A DNA stretch of 64,000 bases from contig NZ_QNRT01000008.1 of the NCBI RefSeq assembly GCF_003315245.1, positions 1 to 64,000 on the forward strand, in the 5' to 3' direction. Below are positions 5,081 through 18,921 of the stretch, in pieces. The notes beneath the pieces were generated by a model. It was not told the origin of the DNA. It saw only the letters and a program-made list of their open reading frames with translations, and did no database searches. Source of the stretch: Arenicella xantha. Its GTDB lineage: Bacteria; Pseudomonadota; Gammaproteobacteria; Arenicellales; Arenicellaceae. How positions within the stretch are numbered: the first letter of the stretch is position 1; each line of letters opens with the position of its first letter. A program made the position numbers and the translations under genes.

Positions 5081-5938
5081 ATGCCCGTAACGCAGCCGCC
5101 GAGCTCAACGTTGCCATTGATCACCTTAATCGCTGCGCTAAGCTGCGAAGTTCGGCCGTGGATTGATGCGCATCGCCTCAAAAAGACTATTGCTAAGCCA
5201 TTTGATTGCTATCGCTCGGAGTCTTTAGAAATTATCGTGGCTGGGATTGGTGCCGAAGCGATGGCAACGGCGGTCGGTTGGGCTGGAGGGCAATCTGATC
5301 GTTCACGGGTCTGGTTGAATATTGGTACTGCCGGGCATGCCTCACGTGCTGTGGGCGAGGTTTTTTTAGTGCATGGCTGTGCCGCAGGAGAACAGGGTAG
5401 AGCGCATTATCCTCCATTAATCGCAAAATGGTCTGGTGCCAGTGATGCCGTGCTGAGTGTGCCTGCGCCATCGAGTGACTACCCGATTGGTGCGGCGGTC
5501 GATATGGAGGCGGCTGCTTTTTATAGCGCGGCTATGCGCTTTGCTCCGAGCGAACTAGTGCAGTCTATTAAGGTAGTGTCAGATAATCAAAGCGAAGGTA
5601 TTGAACACCTAAATGCGTCACGTATTACCGAGTTGATGACGCCGCATGTGGCGTGTGTTGATCGATTTTCCGAGCAATTACGCGATGTGGCGATGCAGAG
5701 CATGGTTGCTACGCCAGCGCAGTGTTTCACAGATATCCGAGCCACCGTTAGCCAGCGTCGACAGATTGAACAGTTGGTGAATCAAATCTCATATATGTCA
5801 GATACTGATGTATTGCATGACTTATCGCAAAAAACGAGCTTAACCGCCAAGGCATTGTTGCGTGAGCTTAATGCGATTGCTGCCGACATTGTTCCGCAGT
5901 TAGCTGCATTGTCACTCGAGGGCACGAAGCATGGTTGA
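5081..5938 (+). CDS. Nucleoside phosphorylase/nucleosidase-like protein with C-terminal extension
   Basis: The first 190 or so residues of this 285-residue protein resemble the PNP/UDP phosphorylase superfamily, closest in layout to methylthioadenosine/S-adenosylhomocysteine nucleosidase. They show an N-terminal ALSCEV segment, a central NIGTAG glycine turn, a VDMEAAA segment (ribose-binding Met-Glu) and a KVVSDN segment carrying the catalytic Asp. The phosphate-binding and mid regions are shortened. The last 85 residues are a helical extension of unknown use. The gene overlaps the radical SAM gene by 8 bases, so the two are likely translated together. Clearing 5'-deoxyadenosine or a related nucleoside made by radical SAM chemistry is an attractive but unproved role. 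Confidence 0.7.
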   Translation: MPVTQPPSSTLPLITLIAALSCEVRPWIDAHRLKKTIAKPFDCYRSESLEIIVAGIGAEAMATAVGWAGGQSDRSRVWLNIGTAGHASRAVGEVFLVHGCAAGEQGRAHYPPLIAKWSGASDAVLSVPAPSSDYPIGAAVDMEAAAFYSAAMRFAPSELVQSIKVVSDNQSEGIEHLNASRITELMTPHVACVDRFSEQLRDVAMQSMVATPAQCFTDIRATVSQRRQIEQLVNQISYMSDTDVLHDLSQKTSLTAKALLRELNAIAADIVPQLAALSLEGTKHG

Positions 5939-6941
5939 TTCCGTATATATCGAACAAGCGATCATGGATTTACCGCGAACCGCGACTATTTTGGCGCGTT
6001 ACCCTAAAGCGCGGCAAATCATAATAGAGCGATATGGAGAGGTGTTTAATTCGCACGCACAGAACTTTCGAATTCAGAAGCAAAACCCATCGTTGATTTT
6101 GGCGGCCAAGCAAAATAGCAAGGTCATGCCAACACCGGCTCAATATGAAACCGGCGGTGGCGCACATTACTACTTTTCACACATGCTTAATTGTGTGTAT
6201 GACTGTCGCTATTGTTTTTTACAGGGCATGTTGCGCTCGGCTAACTATCTACTGTTCGTTAACTATGACGATTTTCTTGAAGAGATTAAGCAGGTTGCCA
6301 AGCGGCATGTCGACGATGCAAAGCCGGTGTGGTTTTTTTCAGGCTATGACTGCGATAGTTTAGCTTATGAACCTGTTACTAAGTTCGCTGAAGTGTTTGT
6401 GCCAGCGTTTAAAGAAATTCCCAATGCGGTGCTCGAGTTACGCACTAAGAGCACGCAAATCCGTTCGTTGCTGAATATGCCTGCGCAGGAAAATGTGGTG
6501 GTGGCCTATAGTTTGAGTCCTGACGCGGTGGCACAACAAGTTGAATTCGGTGCGCCCCCTTTTGCTAAGCGTTTAGAGGCTTTACAGCGCTTACAAGCGC
6601 ACGGTTGGCGGATTGGCATTCGCTTTGATCCAATCGTGTGGCACAGTGATTATGTTGAGGATTATCGCCGTACCGCGCAGGCAGTTTTCGAAACGCTTGA
6701 TCCGAAGCGTATAGATAGCGTCACCTTAGGTGGTTTTCGTCTGCCCAAAGGGTTTCATAAGACAATGTCGAAGCTTTATCCTGAGCATTGGATATTAAAT
6801 GCTGGATTGGATGATACCAATGGCATGGTGGCTTATCGACAAGAAATCGAAGCTGAGGTGCTGGAGACCGTATCCGCTTTGTGTCAAAAATATATGCCAG
6901 CCGACAAACTATTTTGCTATTCGTCGTATGAGTCAGAATAA
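5931..6941 (+). CDS. Spore photoproduct lyase family radical SAM protein
   Basis: This 336-residue protein belongs to the SPL family, whose Bacillus member reverses the UV-made spore photoproduct (a methylene-bridged thymine dimer) with a 5'-deoxyadenosyl radical. The cluster motif C-x3-C-x2-C is at Cys88, Cys92 and Cys95. A further Cys in YDCDS falls at residue 141, the same number as the hydrogen-donating Cys of Bacillus SPL, in a matching context before a helix. Length matches the family (about 340). Since this organism shows no spore genes beyond family-name coincidences, the real substrate may be another thymine lesion. The gene overlaps both neighbours: the nucleosidase by 8 bases and the SDR by 14. 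Confidence 0.85.
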   Translation: MVDSVYIEQAIMDLPRTATILARYPKARQIIIERYGEVFNSHAQNFRIQKQNPSLILAAKQNSKVMPTPAQYETGGGAHYYFSHMLNCVYDCRYCFLQGMLRSANYLLFVNYDDFLEEIKQVAKRHVDDAKPVWFFSGYDCDSLAYEPVTKFAEVFVPAFKEIPNAVLELRTKSTQIRSLLNMPAQENVVVAYSLSPDAVAQQVEFGAPPFAKRLEALQRLQAHGWRIGIRFDPIVWHSDYVEDYRRTAQAVFETLDPKRIDSVTLGGFRLPKGFHKTMSKLYPEHWILNAGLDDTNGMVAYRQEIEAEVLETVSALCQKYMPADKLFCYSSYESE

Positions 6942-9252: not shown

Positions 9253-10191
9253 GTGATTAGGGTGACTTCAACTGGGTTTCATACCGCGGACTCGGCGGCG
9301 CACCACTATGTATTAGCGGGGCAGCCGGTTGTGTTCGAGTCGCAAGTGGCCGCACTGAGTGCTTTTTATATTGGCCCGGCCTCGACTCGTTTTTCCGAAC
9401 TACTATTGCATTTTCCAGAGCCAATTCGGCTAGATCAGCAGAATGCCGAACTGTGTTATCAAGGACAGACCCCGATTCATAATCGCCTGCGCGGTATTCA
9501 ATACTGGCGCAAATCGCATCGAGCTCAGATCGATGTCGATGGGCGGCCTATCTGCTTAATTGATTTCGATGAAAAGCACATCCATCTGTTGAATGAGGCG
9601 TCGTTCGACGCTCGAGTTAATTTGGAAGTTATTATTGGCCCGGCGTTGGTGTTGTTGTTAGCCGAGCTAGATACTTATTGCTTACACGCGGGCGCGGTAA
9701 CTACGCCGGTTGGAAATATCGGCATTATCGCGGAATCGGGCGCTGGGAAATCGACCTTTTCTCGGCATCGAGACACCTTATGGCAACAAATTTCGGATGA
9801 TATCTTGCCAGTGCAAGCACCGGAATTTAAAGATCAAAAACCGTTGTTACTGCCGCGCTTTCCACAACTGAAACTACCCAATGCTACGGTCGAAAAAAGC
9901 GCCAGCGGCAAACTGTCATTAGATTTTTTGGTGCGACTGCATCCGGAGCCTGCCGACACGCTCTATTTTGATCGTTTAGATCGGCGAGCGGCTATGTTGC
10001 AAATTATTCGCCACACAGTTGCCACTAAGCTGTTTGACAGAGACGCCATGCAGCGTCATGCGCGTTTTGCTAAATCGGTATGTGGCACTGTGCCGGTGTT
10101 GGAAATTCGGTTTCCACGCGACAAAAAGCAACTCGCTAGTATGCGAATGAAAACGATTGAGGCCTTGGCTAAGCTCCGCGCACTCGCTTGA
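9253..10191 (+). CDS. HPr-kinase-like protein (HprK-related kinase A type)
   Basis: This 312-residue protein resembles the C-terminal P-loop domain of HPr kinase. A Walker A (ESGAGKST, about residues 161 to 168) is followed by a DDILP segment that matches the HprK catalytic/metal Asp region. The first 150 residues form a mixed strand-rich domain without the HprK N-terminal signature. Such stand-alone HprK relatives occur with PqqD-like and NTP_transf_5 proteins, in so-called HPr-rel-A clusters and in some lasso-peptide clusters, where they phosphorylate a peptide. Both partners are present next door, on the opposite strand, and the 3' ends of this gene and the nucleotidyltransferase overlap by 23 bases. 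It starts at GTG. No HPr or precursor peptide is visible nearby. Confidence 0.75.
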   Translation: MIRVTSTGFHTADSAAHHYVLAGQPVVFESQVAALSAFYIGPASTRFSELLLHFPEPIRLDQQNAELCYQGQTPIHNRLRGIQYWRKSHRAQIDVDGRPICLIDFDEKHIHLLNEASFDARVNLEVIIGPALVLLLAELDTYCLHAGAVTTPVGNIGIIAESGAGKSTFSRHRDTLWQQISDDILPVQAPEFKDQKPLLLPRFPQLKLPNATVEKSASGKLSLDFLVRLHPEPADTLYFDRLDRRAAMLQIIRHTVATKLFDRDAMQRHARFAKSVCGTVPVLEIRFPRDKKQLASMRMKTIEALAKLRALA

Positions 10192-11311
10192 TGCCGCGAA
10201 TCAAACGCTTCATATAGGCTAAGCTGGTCGAGTTAGTGCCCATTTGTTGGCGCACATAAGCGGCTGGTGGTAGCACGGTCTCGCGAATCAAGCCTGCGCG
10301 CGCACTAAGACTAGGCATGCTTTTCAGGTCGCGCATAAAGTAGCGCCATTCTGGTAGGTCTCGGTTAACAAATAACGCGCTAGGCTCCAGTTTGCTATCA
10401 CTTAAGCTAGTCATGATCGTGTCTGGAACTATTGTGCCGAGACGTGTTTGGCAAGTCGCTAGCCCATCAGCCACGATGGCGCACAATTGCTTGTGCCGAC
10501 TTTTGCTAAGCAAAACTTGCCAATCGCTGGATTGCAGTTTACTCGCAAGTAGGTGGATATCGTAAAGCCAGATCAATCGTTCTTCGGTTGCGTGGTGCCC
10601 TAAGCGATGCAGGCAAGCGATTAGTAGATTGTCGACTGTGCTGGGGACTACCACAGTATCGTGCAGAGCATTCAGTGATTGGCCATCGGCATGTAATTGT
10701 TCGACGCTGTAAGCTTGGGCGAGCGCTTGCCGGTTATTGATTCGCCAATGCAGATCGATATGCTGCTTGCTGCCGCCCGGTAGTGTGAGTGAGTAGCTGC
10801 TTTGATATGAGACGTATTTGCCTTCAATCGCAAACTCTTTTTGGTATCCAAGGTTGGCTAAAACTGAATTAGCCAAGGGGCGGTAAATTTCGTCGATTAA
10901 TATGTCAGCGTCCGAGCGAGGTCGGTGCCAAGGTTGCTGATAGATCGTGTGGGCGACGGCCCCTCCTTTAAACAGAATGAAGTGCGCGAGGCCGGCGGCG
11001 GAGAACTGGCTAAATAGCGTTAGCAGAGCCTGTGATCTCAGTCCCTCGCTGGCCACTACCATTGCTTTGCGCTCCAGCAAGGCTGGTTGTAATTTGGTTG
11101 GCAGGGAGTGTTTGCTTGCGAGCAACAGAGTAACGCCGTGGTAGTCAAGTATGCTTAGCAAAGTGTCGACAGATGGCGCAATGTGATCGAATATTGCCTT
11201 TAGCGCGGTACTCGACTCGGCACGGTACGGTTCAGCTAGAAGTGGCGCGAGCAACGCGAGGCTGTTCGAGCGACTAAGCAATTTAGATTGGCTTAGTGGG
11301 GCGGTGGCCAT
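10169..11311 (-). CDS. Nucleotidyltransferase family protein (NTP_transf_5)
   Basis: About 380 residues, belonging to the uncharacterised NTP_transf_5 group of minimal nucleotidyltransferases. The active-site region reads LFKGGAVAH, then RPRSDADILID, i.e. GG followed by R-x3-D-x-D, the metal-binding pair. A second Asp-containing strand is IDLHWR, and a helical half follows. Members recur with HprK-like kinases and PqqD-like proteins, and in lasso-peptide clusters, suggesting nucleotide transfer to a peptide or small molecule. I prefer the ATG at 11311, 4 bases after the PqqD gene ends. A TTG at 11356 would give 15 more residues and overlap it. Its target is unknown. Confidence 0.75.
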   Translation of the reverse strand: MATAPLSQSKLLSRSNSLALLAPLLAEPYRAESSTALKAIFDHIAPSVDTLLSILDYHGVTLLLASKHSLPTKLQPALLERKAMVVASEGLRSQALLTLFSQFSAAGLAHFILFKGGAVAHTIYQQPWHRPRSDADILIDEIYRPLANSVLANLGYQKEFAIEGKYVSYQSSYSLTLPGGSKQHIDLHWRINNRQALAQAYSVEQLHADGQSLNALHDTVVVPSTVDNLLIACLHRLGHHATEERLIWLYDIHLLASKLQSSDWQVLLSKSRHKQLCAIVADGLATCQTRLGTIVPDTIMTSLSDSKLEPSALFVNRDLPEWRYFMRDLKSMPSLSARAGLIRETVLPPAAYVRQQMGTNSTSLAYMKRLIRGIKRVRGA

Positions 11312-11315
11312 TGGC

Positions 11316-11588
11316 TTAGGGAGCTTCGCCGCGACGAGTGATAAGCCCTTGATCAACCAATGTTGTTAGTAACTCAGTGAGGTCATGCTGGACTTGTTCG
11401 GCAGGTGCGTCGTATTGTGATTGAACTGTAGAGACTGCTTCAGGAAAGCTGGATTTCGCTTCAAGTAACTGGAGAAAACTGGTTCCGACCGCATTTAGCC
11501 CAAAATAGGTGCCGGCGTCTAAGTCTAGTAAAACAGATTCATCGTCGACTTGGGTTAGGGATATGTTTGCGGCTAATTGGTACTTCAC
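11316..11588 (-). CDS. PqqD-like peptide chaperone
   Basis: This 90-residue PqqD-fold protein (a RiPP recognition element type) carries the family's hallmark sequence: LLDLDAGTYFGLNAVGTSF at about residues 20 to 38, followed by helices. In PQQ and many peptide-natural-product pathways this fold binds the leader of a precursor peptide and presents it to enzymes. No pqqA, C, E or radical SAM maturase is nearby, so a PQQ role is unlikely. It leads a two-gene minus-strand unit with the nucleotidyltransferase, facing the HprK-like kinase. It starts at GTG. The promoter must lie in the roughly 250-base gap shared with rpsF. Confidence 0.8.
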   Translation of the reverse strand: MKYQLAANISLTQVDDESVLLDLDAGTYFGLNAVGTSFLQLLEAKSSFPEAVSTVQSQYDAPAEQVQHDLTELLTTLVDQGLITRRGEAP

Positions 11589-11846: not shown

Positions 11847-12371
11847 ATGAGACATTACGAAATTGTGTATCTGGTACATCCAGATCAAAGCGAGCAGGTC
11901 ACCGCAATGGCTGATCGCTATAAAGGCGTTATCGAGCAGGGCGGTGGAACCGTTCATCGCTACGAAGACTGGGGTCGCCGCCAGTTAGCATTCCCAATCA
12001 ATAAAATCCACAAGGCTCACTACATTTTGATGAATGTAGAAGTTTCACAAGAGACTTTGGCTGAAATTGAGAACCTTTTCCGCTTTAACGATGCCATCAT
12101 TCGCAACCTCGTGTTGAAAATGAAGAAAGCTGAGACTGAGCCATCAATGATGATGAAAGAAGTTGAAGCTGAGCGTCAGCGTGATGAAGAGCGTGACGCA
12201 GCACGTGCTGCTTCTGCTGAAGCTGATGCCGCCGCTGCTGAAGAGGCTGCTAAAGTAGCAGCAGCTAAAGCCGCTGAGGAAGCGAAAGCTGCCGAAGCTG
12301 AAGAAACCGTTGAAGCCGACAGCGCTGATGAGTCAGCTGCTGAAGAAAAAACTGAAACTGAGGAGGCATAA
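11847..12371 (+). CDS. rpsF: 30S ribosomal protein S6 with long acidic tail
   Basis: S6 binds the central domain of 16S rRNA together with S18. Residues 1 to about 95 are the complete S6 fold ([12 protein letters not shown] at the start, [12 protein letters not shown] in the middle, HYILMNVE). The family is usually 95 to 135 residues long; this one has 174. The extra C-terminal 65 or so residues are a low-complexity Ala/Glu stretch with scattered Asp and Lys, probably a helix or disordered. In E. coli, RimK adds glutamates to the S6 C-terminus; here a Glu-rich tail is encoded in the gene. It heads the rpsF-rpsR-rplI operon behind a GAGGAG site. Confidence 0.97.
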
Positions 12372-15862: not shown

Positions 15863-17242
15863 ATGGCGAAAACAAAAACTGTCTACGCATGTACTGCTTG
15901 TGGTGCGCAGTTTCCAAAATGGACGGGGCAATGCCAGGATTGTGGAGATTGGAACACCTTGCAAGAGGAGCTTGGAAGTCAAAGAACAACGAGCAGCGCG
16001 AACCCCAAGGCGGCGCGGTTTGAAGGTTTTGCGCCGAAAGCTGAGGTTCAGAAGCTGCAAAAAGTCAGTGTTGCCGGCACGCCACGTTTTGGCACGGGGT
16101 TGGCTGAACTGGACCGTGTGCTCGGTGGTGGCTTAGTGCCTGGCTCGGTGATTTTATTAGGTGGCGACCCTGGTATTGGAAAGTCCACTTTGATTCTGCA
16201 AAGCTTAGCTCTGTTGAGCGAGCAAAAAGAAACGCTGTATGTGACTGGCGAGGAATCTGCCGAACAAATTGCATTGCGGGCACGTCGCTTGGGCGTGCAA
16301 GATGCTGATCTGAGTTTGTTGGCGGATAATCAACTGGAAGGCATTTTAGATGTGGCTATTCAATATAAGCCGCAAGTGTTGGTGGTCGATTCGATTCAAA
16401 CCCTTTACACCGATACCTTGCAATCTGCGCCGGGCAGCGTTGCGCAGGTAAGGGAAACCGCTAGCCGCTTGGTACGTTTTGGTAAGCAAACCGGCACAAT
16501 CGTTATTTTGGTGGGGCATGTCACTAAAGAAGGTGCGCTGGCGGGGCCACGCGTGCTTGAGCATATGGTGGATACAGTCTTGTATTTTGAGGGCGAGCAG
16601 AGCAGTACTTTTCGCTTGATCCGCGCGATCAAAAATCGTTTTGGGGCAGTCAATGAAATTGGCGTATTTGCAATGACTGATCGTGGCTTGAAAGAGGTCA
16701 CCAATCCGTCTGCAATGTTTATTAAGCGCACGCAAGATGATGCGACAGGGAGTGTGGTATTGGTCTCGCAAGAGGGTACTCGCCCGTTATTAGTTGAGGT
16801 GCAGGCGCTGGTTGATCAGAGTTCCTTGGCGAACCCGCGTCGAGTTACTGTGGGGCTGGATAATCAACGGCTAGCGATGCTGTTAGCGGTGGTTAATCGC
16901 CATGCGGGATTTTCCTTGTATGATCAAGATGTGTTCGTCAACGTGATCGGTGGTGTTAAGGTGCATGAACCGGCGGCCGATCTCGCGATATTACTAGCGG
17001 TGCTATCGAGTTTTAAGAATCGCCGACTACCCTCCGATATGGCTGTGTTTGGCGAAATTGGTTTAACTGGTGAGATTCGCCCTGTACAAGGCGGGCTAGA
17101 TCGGATAAAAGAGGTAGAGAAGCTCGGATTTAAGCGCTTAATTATACCCAAGGGGAACCAATCGAGCTGGAAGTCGAGCAAATTGGAAATAGTCGCCGTT
17201 AATACCCTGGAACAGGCAGTGAGATGTGCATTTGATGATTAA
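15863..17242 (+). CDS. radA: DNA repair protein RadA
   Basis: This 459-residue RadA (Sms) drives branch migration of recombination intermediates. A four-Cys zinc finger sits at Cys10, Cys13, Cys24 and Cys27. The RecA-like domain has Walker A GGDPGIGKST (about residues 95 to 104) and the RadA-specific KNRFG motif (in AIKNRFGAVNE). The C-terminus is a Lon-protease-like domain without protease residues. I placed the start at the ATG at 15863, which has AGAGGGA 7 bases upstream; a longer upstream frame overlapping alr lacks family similarity. The protease gene overlaps its 3' end. Confidence 0.96.
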   Translation: MAKTKTVYACTACGAQFPKWTGQCQDCGDWNTLQEELGSQRTTSSANPKAARFEGFAPKAEVQKLQKVSVAGTPRFGTGLAELDRVLGGGLVPGSVILLGGDPGIGKSTLILQSLALLSEQKETLYVTGEESAEQIALRARRLGVQDADLSLLADNQLEGILDVAIQYKPQVLVVDSIQTLYTDTLQSAPGSVAQVRETASRLVRFGKQTGTIVILVGHVTKEGALAGPRVLEHMVDTVLYFEGEQSSTFRLIRAIKNRFGAVNEIGVFAMTDRGLKEVTNPSAMFIKRTQDDATGSVVLVSQEGTRPLLVEVQALVDQSSLANPRRVTVGLDNQRLAMLLAVVNRHAGFSLYDQDVFVNVIGGVKVHEPAADLAILLAVLSSFKNRRLPSDMAVFGEIGLTGEIRPVQGGLDRIKEVEKLGFKRLIIPKGNQSSWKSSKLEIVAVNTLEQAVRCAFDD

Positions 17243-17888
17243 ACAACTCTTGATGATATTTTTGTTGCTGTCGATCAGTAGCGTCGCTTATGCTAAGTCA
17301 GTGACTGCGATAGCGTTGTTTAACGATCGGGCAATGTTATCGATTGATGGCACTAAGCCCAAAATAGTGCGTGCCGGCAGCTCATATAGAGGTGTCGAGT
17401 TAGTCAGTTCGAATACTAAAGAGGCCGTGATCTCAGTCAACGGACAGCGCGAAACCTTAACCCTCAATAGTACTACACGACTTAAACACAGCCTTGGTGC
17501 CAAACCTTCTGCAAGCTATGCTGAAGAGGTTACGTTGTTTGTTAATGATGCCGGTTTTTTTGAATCTGACGGTAGCATTGATGGCAAAGGCATTCGCTTT
17601 TTGGTTGATACCGGAGCGAGCTTAGTGGTGCTCAGTAGCGAGCAAGCCGAGCGAGTGGGGGTTGATTATCTGAGTGGCCAAATGGGCTATGCAAATACCG
17701 CGTCAGGCACAGCGCCGATGTATAGCGTTGAATTAGACGAAGTCAGTATCGGTGGCATTCGGATTAACAATGTTAGAGCGGGAGTCATCGTCGGCAATTA
17801 CCCGTTGAAACCGTTATTAGGAATGACCTTTTTAAGTCGTTTAAATATGAATCGCACCGGTAATACCATGGTGTTGAAGCGTCGCTAA
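17226..17888 (+). CDS. Periplasmic retropepsin-like aspartic protease (TIGR02281 type)
   Basis: This 220-residue single-domain aspartic protease of clan AA has a signal peptide (about residues 1 to 23, ending AYA). The active-site motif VDTGAS is at residues 127 to 132, and a late GMTFLSRL matches the family's LGM-x-FL end. One Asp per chain means it must act as a dimer. The listed start is a GTG; an ATG 9 bases later (17235) gives an equally good signal peptide and may be the true one. It overlaps radA by 17 bases, so it is probably translated from the same mRNA. Its substrate is unknown. Confidence 0.85.
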   Translation: MHLMIKQLLMIFLLLSISSVAYAKSVTAIALFNDRAMLSIDGTKPKIVRAGSSYRGVELVSSNTKEAVISVNGQRETLTLNSTTRLKHSLGAKPSASYAEEVTLFVNDAGFFESDGSIDGKGIRFLVDTGASLVVLSSEQAERVGVDYLSGQMGYANTASGTAPMYSVELDEVSIGGIRINNVRAGVIVGNYPLKPLLGMTFLSRLNMNRTGNTMVLKRR

Positions 17889-17922
17889 GCACGACATTAG
17901 CTTGCGATTGATGGCAATAAAT

Positions 17923-17957
17923 AAAAGCCGCATGGACTCGACTCCATGCGGCTTTTT
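17923..17957. terminator. Bidirectional terminator
   Basis: AAAAGCCGCATGGA and TCCATGCGGCTTTT make a near-perfect long stem with a 6-base loop and T-rich flanks on both strands. It sits between the plus-strand protease gene and the convergent folE2. Confidence 0.9.
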
Positions 17958-18096
17958 TATTGCCTAGCAACATCCTGTTGCAACTCGTACATCCTGTACT
18001 TTTAGCTATTCCCGGTAAGGAAATAATAGTATAGGACGACGGTGTTTGCCGCGCCTCACCCGACTGGGTGAGATTGCTGACTTTGTGTGCCGATTG

Positions 18097-18921
18097 CTAA
18101 ACAGACTTGTCGTGTTCGACCACCGCAAAAGCGCTGTGATTATGTATCGATTCAAAATTTTCGGCGTGAACGTAATAGCGTAAAATTCGGTCGTTTTGGT
18201 CAAACACATCAGCTACATCGCGTACCACGTCTTCAACGAATTTAGGATTGTTATACGCGCGCTCGGTTATGTATTTTTCGTCTGGTCGTTTTAAAATTGC
18301 GAATAGTTCAGCGCTTGCTTGCGCTTCTACGCTTTTAATAAGTTCGTCAAGCCACAGTTTGCTACTGCAATTGATGCCAACGGTAATGTGCGAGCGTTGA
18401 TTATGTGCGCCATATTCGGAAATTTTCTTAGAGCAGGGGCATAAACTTTTGACTGGAATGGTTACTTCCAATGTCGCATCGATATGACCTTGTTCAATTT
18501 GGCCCACAAGATTCACTTGGTAGTCCATCAAGCTTTTAACTCCCGAGACAGGCGCAGTTTTTTCGATGAAGTACGGAAACTGCATCTCGATGTACCCTGA
18601 TTCAGCTTCTAAGCGTTCCACCATGCTCGATAGCATTTTGTTGAAATTTTTCGCTGAAATTTCAGTTTCAGTTTCATTCAGCATTTGAATGAAACGAGAC
18701 ATGTGCGTGCCTTTTTGGTCGTGTGGCAAGCTCACTGACATCGAAAATGTGGCAATACTGGCGGAGCGTCGTCCGTCTTTACCAAGTACTGTAATAGGAT
18801 GCTGAATATCTTTGATGCCGACTCGGTTAATCGGAATCTGGCGAGTGTCGACGCTACCTTGAACATCTTCCATGGTTGCTGAAGTTGATTGGGTATTAGT
18901 CGATTTAGTTGCGGATGTCAT
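18097..18921 (-). CDS. folE2: GTP cyclohydrolase FolE2 (type IB)
   Basis: FolE2 converts GTP to dihydroneopterin triphosphate, the first step of folate synthesis (and of queuosine). This 274-residue protein has the N-terminal [12 protein letters not shown] segment, the [14 protein letters not shown] region and the active-site Cys in LCPCSK (about residues 161 to 163). Family length is about 260 to 310. I chose the ATG at 18921; a GTG 30 bases upstream is possible. FolE2 can work with metals other than zinc and is often switched on by zinc lack through Zur, but I see no convincing Zur box upstream. It sits 65 bases downstream of dxs on the same strand. Confidence 0.93.

Follow-up and report, generated by a model that had tools for sequence, protein, structure and literature searches.

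A kinase, nucleotidyltransferase and PqqD gene trio of Arenicella xantha: probable tailoring arm of a lasso peptide pathway encoded at three genomic sites

The 64,000-nucleotide (nt) stretch of Arenicella xantha DNA analysed here (the window; it is the start of contig C8 of the 29-contig, 4.44 Mb genome G000) carries three closely packed genes for a kinase with a predicted HprK/PEPCK fold (K), an NTP_transf_5 protein (N) and a lasso-type PqqD protein, or ribosomally synthesised and post-translationally modified peptide (RiPP) recognition element (RRE; B1). We conclude that these genes are very probably the leader-recognition and tailoring arm of a genus-wide lasso peptide pathway whose genes lie at three sites; the substrate would be a precursor peptide (A) that is encoded with a lasso-cyclase-like protein (C) at a second site, and a leader peptidase (B2) is encoded at the third. 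In A. xantha the three loci are on contigs C8, C4 and C3, and A, B1, B2 and C are not clustered. All genus counts below refer to 18 genomes (G000 to G017), G000 included. A first-pass annotation of this DNA had proposed that a peptide is bound by the PqqD protein and then phosphorylated, and by conservation, synteny and phylogeny this appears to be the best reading.

The trio and its place in the genome

K is encoded at 9253..10191 (+ strand, an open reading frame (ORF) of 312 amino acids (aa) with a GTG start), N at 10169..11356 (− strand, 395-aa ORF, TTG start) and B1 at 11316..11588 (− strand, 90-aa ORF, GTG start). For N an ATG at 11311, 4 nt past the PqqD stop, is a likelier start than the TTG. 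The first-pass annotation had described three packed ORFs with the kinase facing the other two across a 23-base 3' overlap; all three are indeed open, and the overlap in the window (10169..10191) does measure 23 nt. The 3' ends of K and N were compared at 16 genus loci, the window among them, and range from a 51-nt overlap to a 59-nt gap, so the 23-nt overlap is not a conserved feature.

K is found in all 18 genus genomes (in G010 as a 45-residue piece at a contig end only) and in 38 of the 109 genomes of the order that were searched, and matches to N and to PqqD are likewise present in 18/18; wide loci were taken for the 18 genus genomes and for 12 of the other K-positive ones. No K match was found in three family-mates outside the genus (G018 to G020). 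The block in which K faces N and B1 adjoins rpsF-rpsR-rplI in 16 of the 18 genus genomes, window included. As for the other two, the G005 contig stops before rpsF, and in G015 N and B1 remain at rpsF and K is on a separate contig. The neighbours kept beside the trio are, by synteny and with names read from translations, rpsF-rpsR-rplI-dnaB-alr-radA, with rpsF first; in the window rpsF, a landmark of the site that is outside the pathway and whose name was read from its translation alone, is at 11847..12371 (+ strand). Contig L004 has the same gene order as the window. The trio ORFs are full-length wherever contigs permit, and the stops flagged in K and N of G017 are, by ORF coordinates, the genes' own ends. 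Genes of 460 aa labelled as kinases (KIN) in loci L108, L111 and L117 (42-46 bits) were taken for RadA by position and excluded. Co-location of homologs in other genomes, on which the first-pass annotation had staked its case, is seen: a kinase of the broad family is present in 23 of 61 N loci, many of which are on short contigs.

The genes of the proposed pathway diverge quickly within the genus. Median pairwise identities are 0.38-0.43 for K, N, B1, B2 and C, compared with 0.81-0.94 for rpsF, rpsR, rplI and dnaB and 0.34-0.64 for four other neighbours.

The three proteins

A profile built from K and 14 relatives found HPr kinases at the top (1jb1, E 3e-7), in the P-loop region only, with ABC ATPases following from E 4e-6. 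The AlphaFold2 model of K (pLDDT 82.8) matched PEP carboxykinases over residues 6-312 (1j3b_A, Z 13.6, rmsd 4.5, 238 residues aligned) and also HprK at weaker Foldseek E-values (1kkl_B, 2e-4). Residues H145, K166, D182 and D183 are invariant in 17 genus sequences (the G010 gene is cut), and a review describes such a His-Lys-Asp-Asp motif as conserved and required in lasso-peptide kinases (PMC9266682). Judged by its modelled fold and by the presence of the His, Walker Lys and Asp-Asp residues, K is a member of the HprK/PEPCK fold superfamily.

N matches PF14907 with 108.8 bits (cut-off 31.2). Its residues G131, D149, D151 and D201 are invariant in all 18 genus sequences and presumably form the motif of a Pol-beta-type nucleotidyltransferase. 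B1 matches PF05402 with 59.6 bits (cut-off 23.4) and the TbiB1 structure 5v1u with an E-value of 1.5e-10, and its best NCBIfam match is lasso_PqqD_Strm at 54 bits, under the cut-off of 70. N32 and D69 of B1 are invariant in 16 genus sequences (G005 is cut by a contig end and G008 was missed by the gene caller); in the alignment with LppB they pair with Asn and Asp residues whose 37-residue spacing is equal to that of N33 and D70, the two LppB residues reported to hold the leader (PMC13381572). By this analogy N32 and D69 are probable contacts of the YxxP leader.

Probable precursor and cyclase-like gene at a second site

The second site (G000:C4:16246-18355) holds C, an asparagine-synthase-like gene at 16246-18138, and then A, the ORF directly 3' of it, which a motif scan of the loci brought out and which ends in YQKPVLTCYGDVRDVTL-GPTFGGGESGCEGIFKVGPGGCPGP. 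C is present in 16 of the 18 genus genomes (E <= 1e-30); it exceeds the PF00733 cut-off, and its SGGxDS motif is invariant in the 16 sequences, one for each of these genomes. A lies immediately 3' of C in all 16 (15 genomes and G014). Its leader has the form YxxPxL...T(-2), with Y(-17), P(-14), L(-12) and T(-2) in 16/16, and its core the form G1-x-[T/S]3-x-G-x-G-E8-S9, with G1, T/S3, E8 and S9 also in 16/16; position 3 is Thr in 15 and Ser in one. Work on the bsf pathway reports that B1 recognises Tyr(-17), Pro(-14) and Leu(-12) and that Thr(-2) is the residue usually found for processing (PMC10368454). Both genus precursors submitted to lasso_leader_L3 (NF033521, cut-off 19) passed, with 22.4 and 23.0 bits.

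The first-pass annotation had placed the substrate elsewhere in the genome or outside the classical peptide products; the first part agrees with what was found, and the second does not, as the probable substrate is an ordinary-looking lasso precursor, with the cyclase and the leader peptidase at two other sites. The survey of relatives for a conserved small ORF that it had suggested gave no substrate near the trio: among small ORFs that recur in at least 3 of the 18 genus loci, the only ones within 2 kb of the trio are rpsR, ORFs that overlap it and those of the promoter region between B1 and rpsF. The remaining recurring small ORFs overlap a tRNA-Leu or sit more than 3.5 kb from the trio; their coding status was not tested.

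In 8 of the 16 genus loci, several of which end at a contig edge, A and C adjoin TonB-dependent receptor genes (for example L143:5967-8183 and L184:3462-5555); these fall into two types, each represented by one tested member.

Leader peptidase at a third site

A lone B2 gene is at G000:C3:59884-60303 and its product matches NF033537 (lasso_biosyn_B2) with 62.1 bits (cut-off 33). A gspC-like gene flanks it on one side and mgtE-ptsI-ptsH-rapZ-ptsN-hpf-rpoN on the other, these names being readings of translations except for HPr, enzyme I and GspC. At locus L144 (L144:8885-9307 with L144:10809-12815) the lone B2 is near ptsH-ptsI. Cys81 and His115 of B2 are invariant in the 13 site-3 orthologs; the gene is intact at this site in 13 of the 18 genus genomes and broken in G017. 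Of the 5 genomes that lack an intact site-3 B2, 4 have another B2; among the 13 that have it the figure is 1 (one-sided Fisher p 0.008, uncorrected for relatedness).

Do these scattered genes belong to one pathway? In G003, G007, G009 and G011 (99, 95, 78 and 87% complete) the sole PqqD match is that of the trio, and A and C are present. In G003, G009 and G011 the matches to K, N, C, PqqD and B2 number one apiece and are divided among three places; the queries for K and N were the window proteins, so distant paralogs of these two could be missed in the single-copy counts. The dispersal is not an assembly artefact, because G001 has B2 and C on one contig, about 556 kb from each other, and the trio 987 kb into another.

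Related kinases in the order

The kinase tree has 55 rows, including one duplicate locus (L146 = L116) and five long branches of unsure placement, and was built from kinases of 271 to 419 aa, which excludes, for example, L129 of G022. In it all the genus kinases form one clade (99/99) with those of family f5 (G027 to G034), G048 and G041, apart from the paralogs of the A. xantha genome. In the f5 loci C, A and K stand together in 8/8, and 7 of the 8 are upstream of rpsF-rpsR-rplI-dnaB, the same site as K of the window (rpsF is labelled in L123, L124, L125 and L128, and rplI, rpsR or dnaB follow in L126, L127 and L131). An ancestor probably carried C, A and K together at rpsF, and in this genus K stayed there while A and C are now elsewhere. 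In relatives from outside the genus, lasso clusters with a cyclase and often a B2 house many of the broad-family kinases, and the precursors are small ORFs with a YxxPxL leader. The nine order-mate precursors that accompany kinases of the clade all have Ser after the ring acid; six of them have Ser at position 3 and the other three (L123, L124, L128) have Pro there.

A number of other loci came to light in this survey. At L130 (G041:C6:54759-56710) there is an N-K pair whose kinase is in the same clade, with no cyclase in the 19 kb covered; it may belong to another scattered pathway. In L123, L128 and L131 cyclase-precursor-kinase sets with two precursor types flank both sides of a large repeat protein at the rpsF site, and these loci also hold a 460-aa family (c19) of which one tested member had no Pfam match. 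A second, complete-looking lasso cluster is found at L103 (G000:C3:364943-376900) and L159 (G013:C33); it contains N, B2, cyclase, K, a sulfotransferase, B1 and an Asp-hydroxylase fused to a sulfotransferase, the opposite strand has precursor-like ORFs that end in ...TS, and its product is possibly a sulfated, C-terminally phosphorylated lasso peptide. Some broad-family kinases are outside lasso clusters: those at L011, L024, L048, L049 and L062 have as neighbours a PqqD and members of one cluster, of which that at L049 is a radical SAM protein. The window itself encodes, at 5931-6941 (+ strand), a radical SAM protein like spore photoproduct lyase (PF20903, 68.2 bits), preceded by a 285-aa ORF with no Pfam match.

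Proposed pathway and site of phosphorylation

The genes, their conservation, motifs, synteny and phylogeny were observed directly, and from them we infer the reactions, their sequence and the residue that is modified, as follows: B1 would bind the YxxPxL leader of A, K would phosphorylate the core at Thr3/Ser3 (with BsfK as precedent) or at the better-conserved Ser9, N would add a nucleotidyl or sugar group to the phosphate (as PsmN appears to do), B2 would cut off the leader one residue past Thr(-2), and C would close the ring between Gly1 and Glu8.

Thr3/Ser3 is one predicted phosphosite because BsfK is reported to phosphorylate core Ser3 and to accept Thr3, aided by its B1 (PMC10368454), and LppK likewise to act on an S3 (PMC13381572). 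The substrate position of BsfK, a Ser or Thr at core position 3, is present in 16/16 genus and 6/9 order-mate precursors. Ser9 is the other predicted site because Ser follows the ring acid in all nine order-mate precursors and position 3 is less well kept. Precedent thus favours position 3, and conservation favours Ser9. Phosphorylation of a C-terminal Ser, as by PadeK, does not fit, as none of the 16 genus cores ends in Ser. As for the step after phosphorylation, PsmN has been linked to hexoses on the pseudomycoidin phosphate by a route described as unproven (PMC9266682), and LppN is reported to have had no activity in its host (PMC13381572).

Points against the proposed pathway and alternative explanations

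Several observations weigh against the assignment of the trio to a lasso pathway with A as its substrate. No kinase model of Pfam or NCBIfam recognises K by itself, the best NCBIfam match of C, to the lasso cyclase model NF033535, reaches 227.6 bits (cut-off 525), and the one order-mate precursor tested scores 17.5 against lasso_leader_L3, under the cut-off of 19. The lack of a C-terminal Ser in the genus cores does not suit the PadeK type of reaction, position 3 is Pro in three of the nine order-mate precursors, and locus L005 also has Ser after the ring acid, yet no kinase is seen there. C was not found in G012 (88% complete) or G016 (98%), both of which keep K, N, PqqD and B2, and no A-C pair was found in the 1.15 Mb that were read of the 3.1 Mb of G016; since one G016 contig has the start of an a3-like flank gene only 241 bp from its end, a contig break is possible there, but the gene next to it is unlike the A-C flank. 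No B2 was found in G005 (81% complete), and no exporter was identified. Nor is the common pace of divergence of the pathway proteins specific to them: the neighbour hk12 (identity 0.34) correlates with C with r 0.93, and since this is equally strong we dropped mirror-tree correlation as proof of partnership.

Of the other explanations, the one that survives best, though we consider it unlikely, is that the trio has some other substrate, a linear phosphopeptide like that of the LPP family of Bacillota, and that A and C are served by other enzymes. A K-RRE-N set can work without a lasso cyclase, as reported for LPP (PMC13381572); the A. xantha genome has three further PqqD matches above cut-off, and G012 and G016 keep the trio where no A-C pair was found. 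Against this, the neighbourhood of the trio offers no recurring small ORF beyond those named above; moreover, the trio's PqqD is the sole one detected in the four genomes listed above, and kinases of the same clade adjoin A and C in order-mates.

A second explanation, which we regard as distinctly improbable, is that K, as a diverged HPr(Ser) kinase, controls the HPr whose gene is near the lone B2, with N and B1 its neighbours by accident. The modelled fold of K would suit this, and there is an HPr-family gene on G000:C3 (TIGR01003, 93.9 bits); the PF07475 cut-off is passed in only one of the 18 genus genomes, by the kinase of the lasso-like cluster in G013. K itself matches neither PF07475 nor TIGR00679, and so is not the true HPr kinase that in the first-pass annotation would have made the trio a coincidence, and its closest relatives outside the genus adjoin a lasso precursor and cyclase, except that of G041, which adjoins N alone. 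That the trio is a decaying remnant of an ancestral rpsF-site lasso cluster with no current role is scarcely credible: the ancestral cluster does appear rearranged and the site-3 B2 is broken in G017, but no variation is seen at the key residues of the five proteins K, N, B1, B2 and C in spite of the low median identities, the trio ORFs are full-length as described above, natural gene ends in G017 included, and the trio genes are kept in G015 even with K separated from N and B1.

Significance of the scattered arrangement

Lasso pathways are commonly recognised by A, B and C genes that stand side by side. Because the precursor and enzyme set proposed here is spread over three distant places in the genome, tools that seek clusters would probably miss the pathway, and its parts would be read as three unrelated orphans. 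Conservation across the genus, added to gene neighbourhood, gave the K-N-RRE trio a concrete candidate substrate and phosphosite to test, and it hints that lasso peptides can be inherited vertically as stable traits. We tentatively go a step further and consider it possible, if somewhat doubtful, that the product is a core-genome lasso peptide of an unclustered pathway, phosphorylated on Thr3 or Ser9 and further decorated by N, which would add a sugar or nucleotide to the phosphate, and that it is a conserved physiological molecule rather than an accessory antibiotic. If this is true, K-N-RRE "orphans" in other genomes would often be pieces of scattered pathways.

Comparison with known systems

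The first-pass annotation had identified the trio with the HPr-rel-A set (TIGR04352/TIGR04353), which it resembles in joining a kinase and a PqqD gene, here also with an NTP_transf_5 gene. By score the kinase and PqqD families are different ones, and the identification fails: K has no TIGR04352 match even at E up to 10 (cut-off 200 bits), and B1 scores 15.3 bits against TIGR04353 (cut-off 35). Elsewhere in the genome, locus L104 (G000:C1: ~1047725-1049989) has an HPr-rel-A-like kinase (104.8 bits to TIGR04352, under 200) with PqqD and NTP_transf_5. A methyltransferase gene separates this set from a nearby gene for an SdrD_B repeat protein, which has at least 2105 aa; proteins of the blast cluster of this repeat protein, among them the repeat protein of L123, L128 and L131, recur near related kinases at other loci.

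The LPP system of Bacillota (LppA/K/B/S/D/N), whose K-RRE-N module was described in 2026 (PMC13381572), is like the one proposed here in its discrete RRE, HprK-like kinase and NTP transferase and in S3 phosphorylation; LPP, as described there, works with a signal-peptidase-like LppS and an MsbA-like exporter and has its precursor in the same cluster, whereas here a lasso B2 and C are at other loci. Paeninodin and pseudomycoidin (PadeK, PsmK, PsmN) share a His-Lys-Asp-Asp HprK-like kinase and an annotated nucleotidyltransferase that tailor a lasso peptide, but in the account of the review their C-terminal Ser is phosphorylated and their genes are clustered (PMC9266682), and the 16 genus cores have no terminal Ser. 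Citrulassin, with its unclustered PAD gene, is a reported case of a lasso enzyme encoded away from the cluster; there a single tailoring enzyme is unlinked (PMC12971885), whereas here B1, B2 and A-C are all apart. The bsf pathway of Bradymonas sediminis, as its description has it, uses an HprK-like kinase, B1 and B2 on a lasso precursor that starts its core with Gly1, has its ring acid at position 8 and lacks a terminal Ser, and the kinase modifies core position 3 and accepts Thr, all as proposed here; it differs in its single gene cluster, Asp8 and Ile(-2) (PMC10368454), in place of which the present genus has Glu8, Thr(-2), an added N and three sites. Our searches of the open-licence PMC literature turned up no lasso pathway in which A-C, B2 and K/N-B1 are divided among three sites that are kept through a genus. 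The kinase, N, RRE, B2, C and precursor are all of known kinds, and what appears new is their three-site layout, conserved across the genus.

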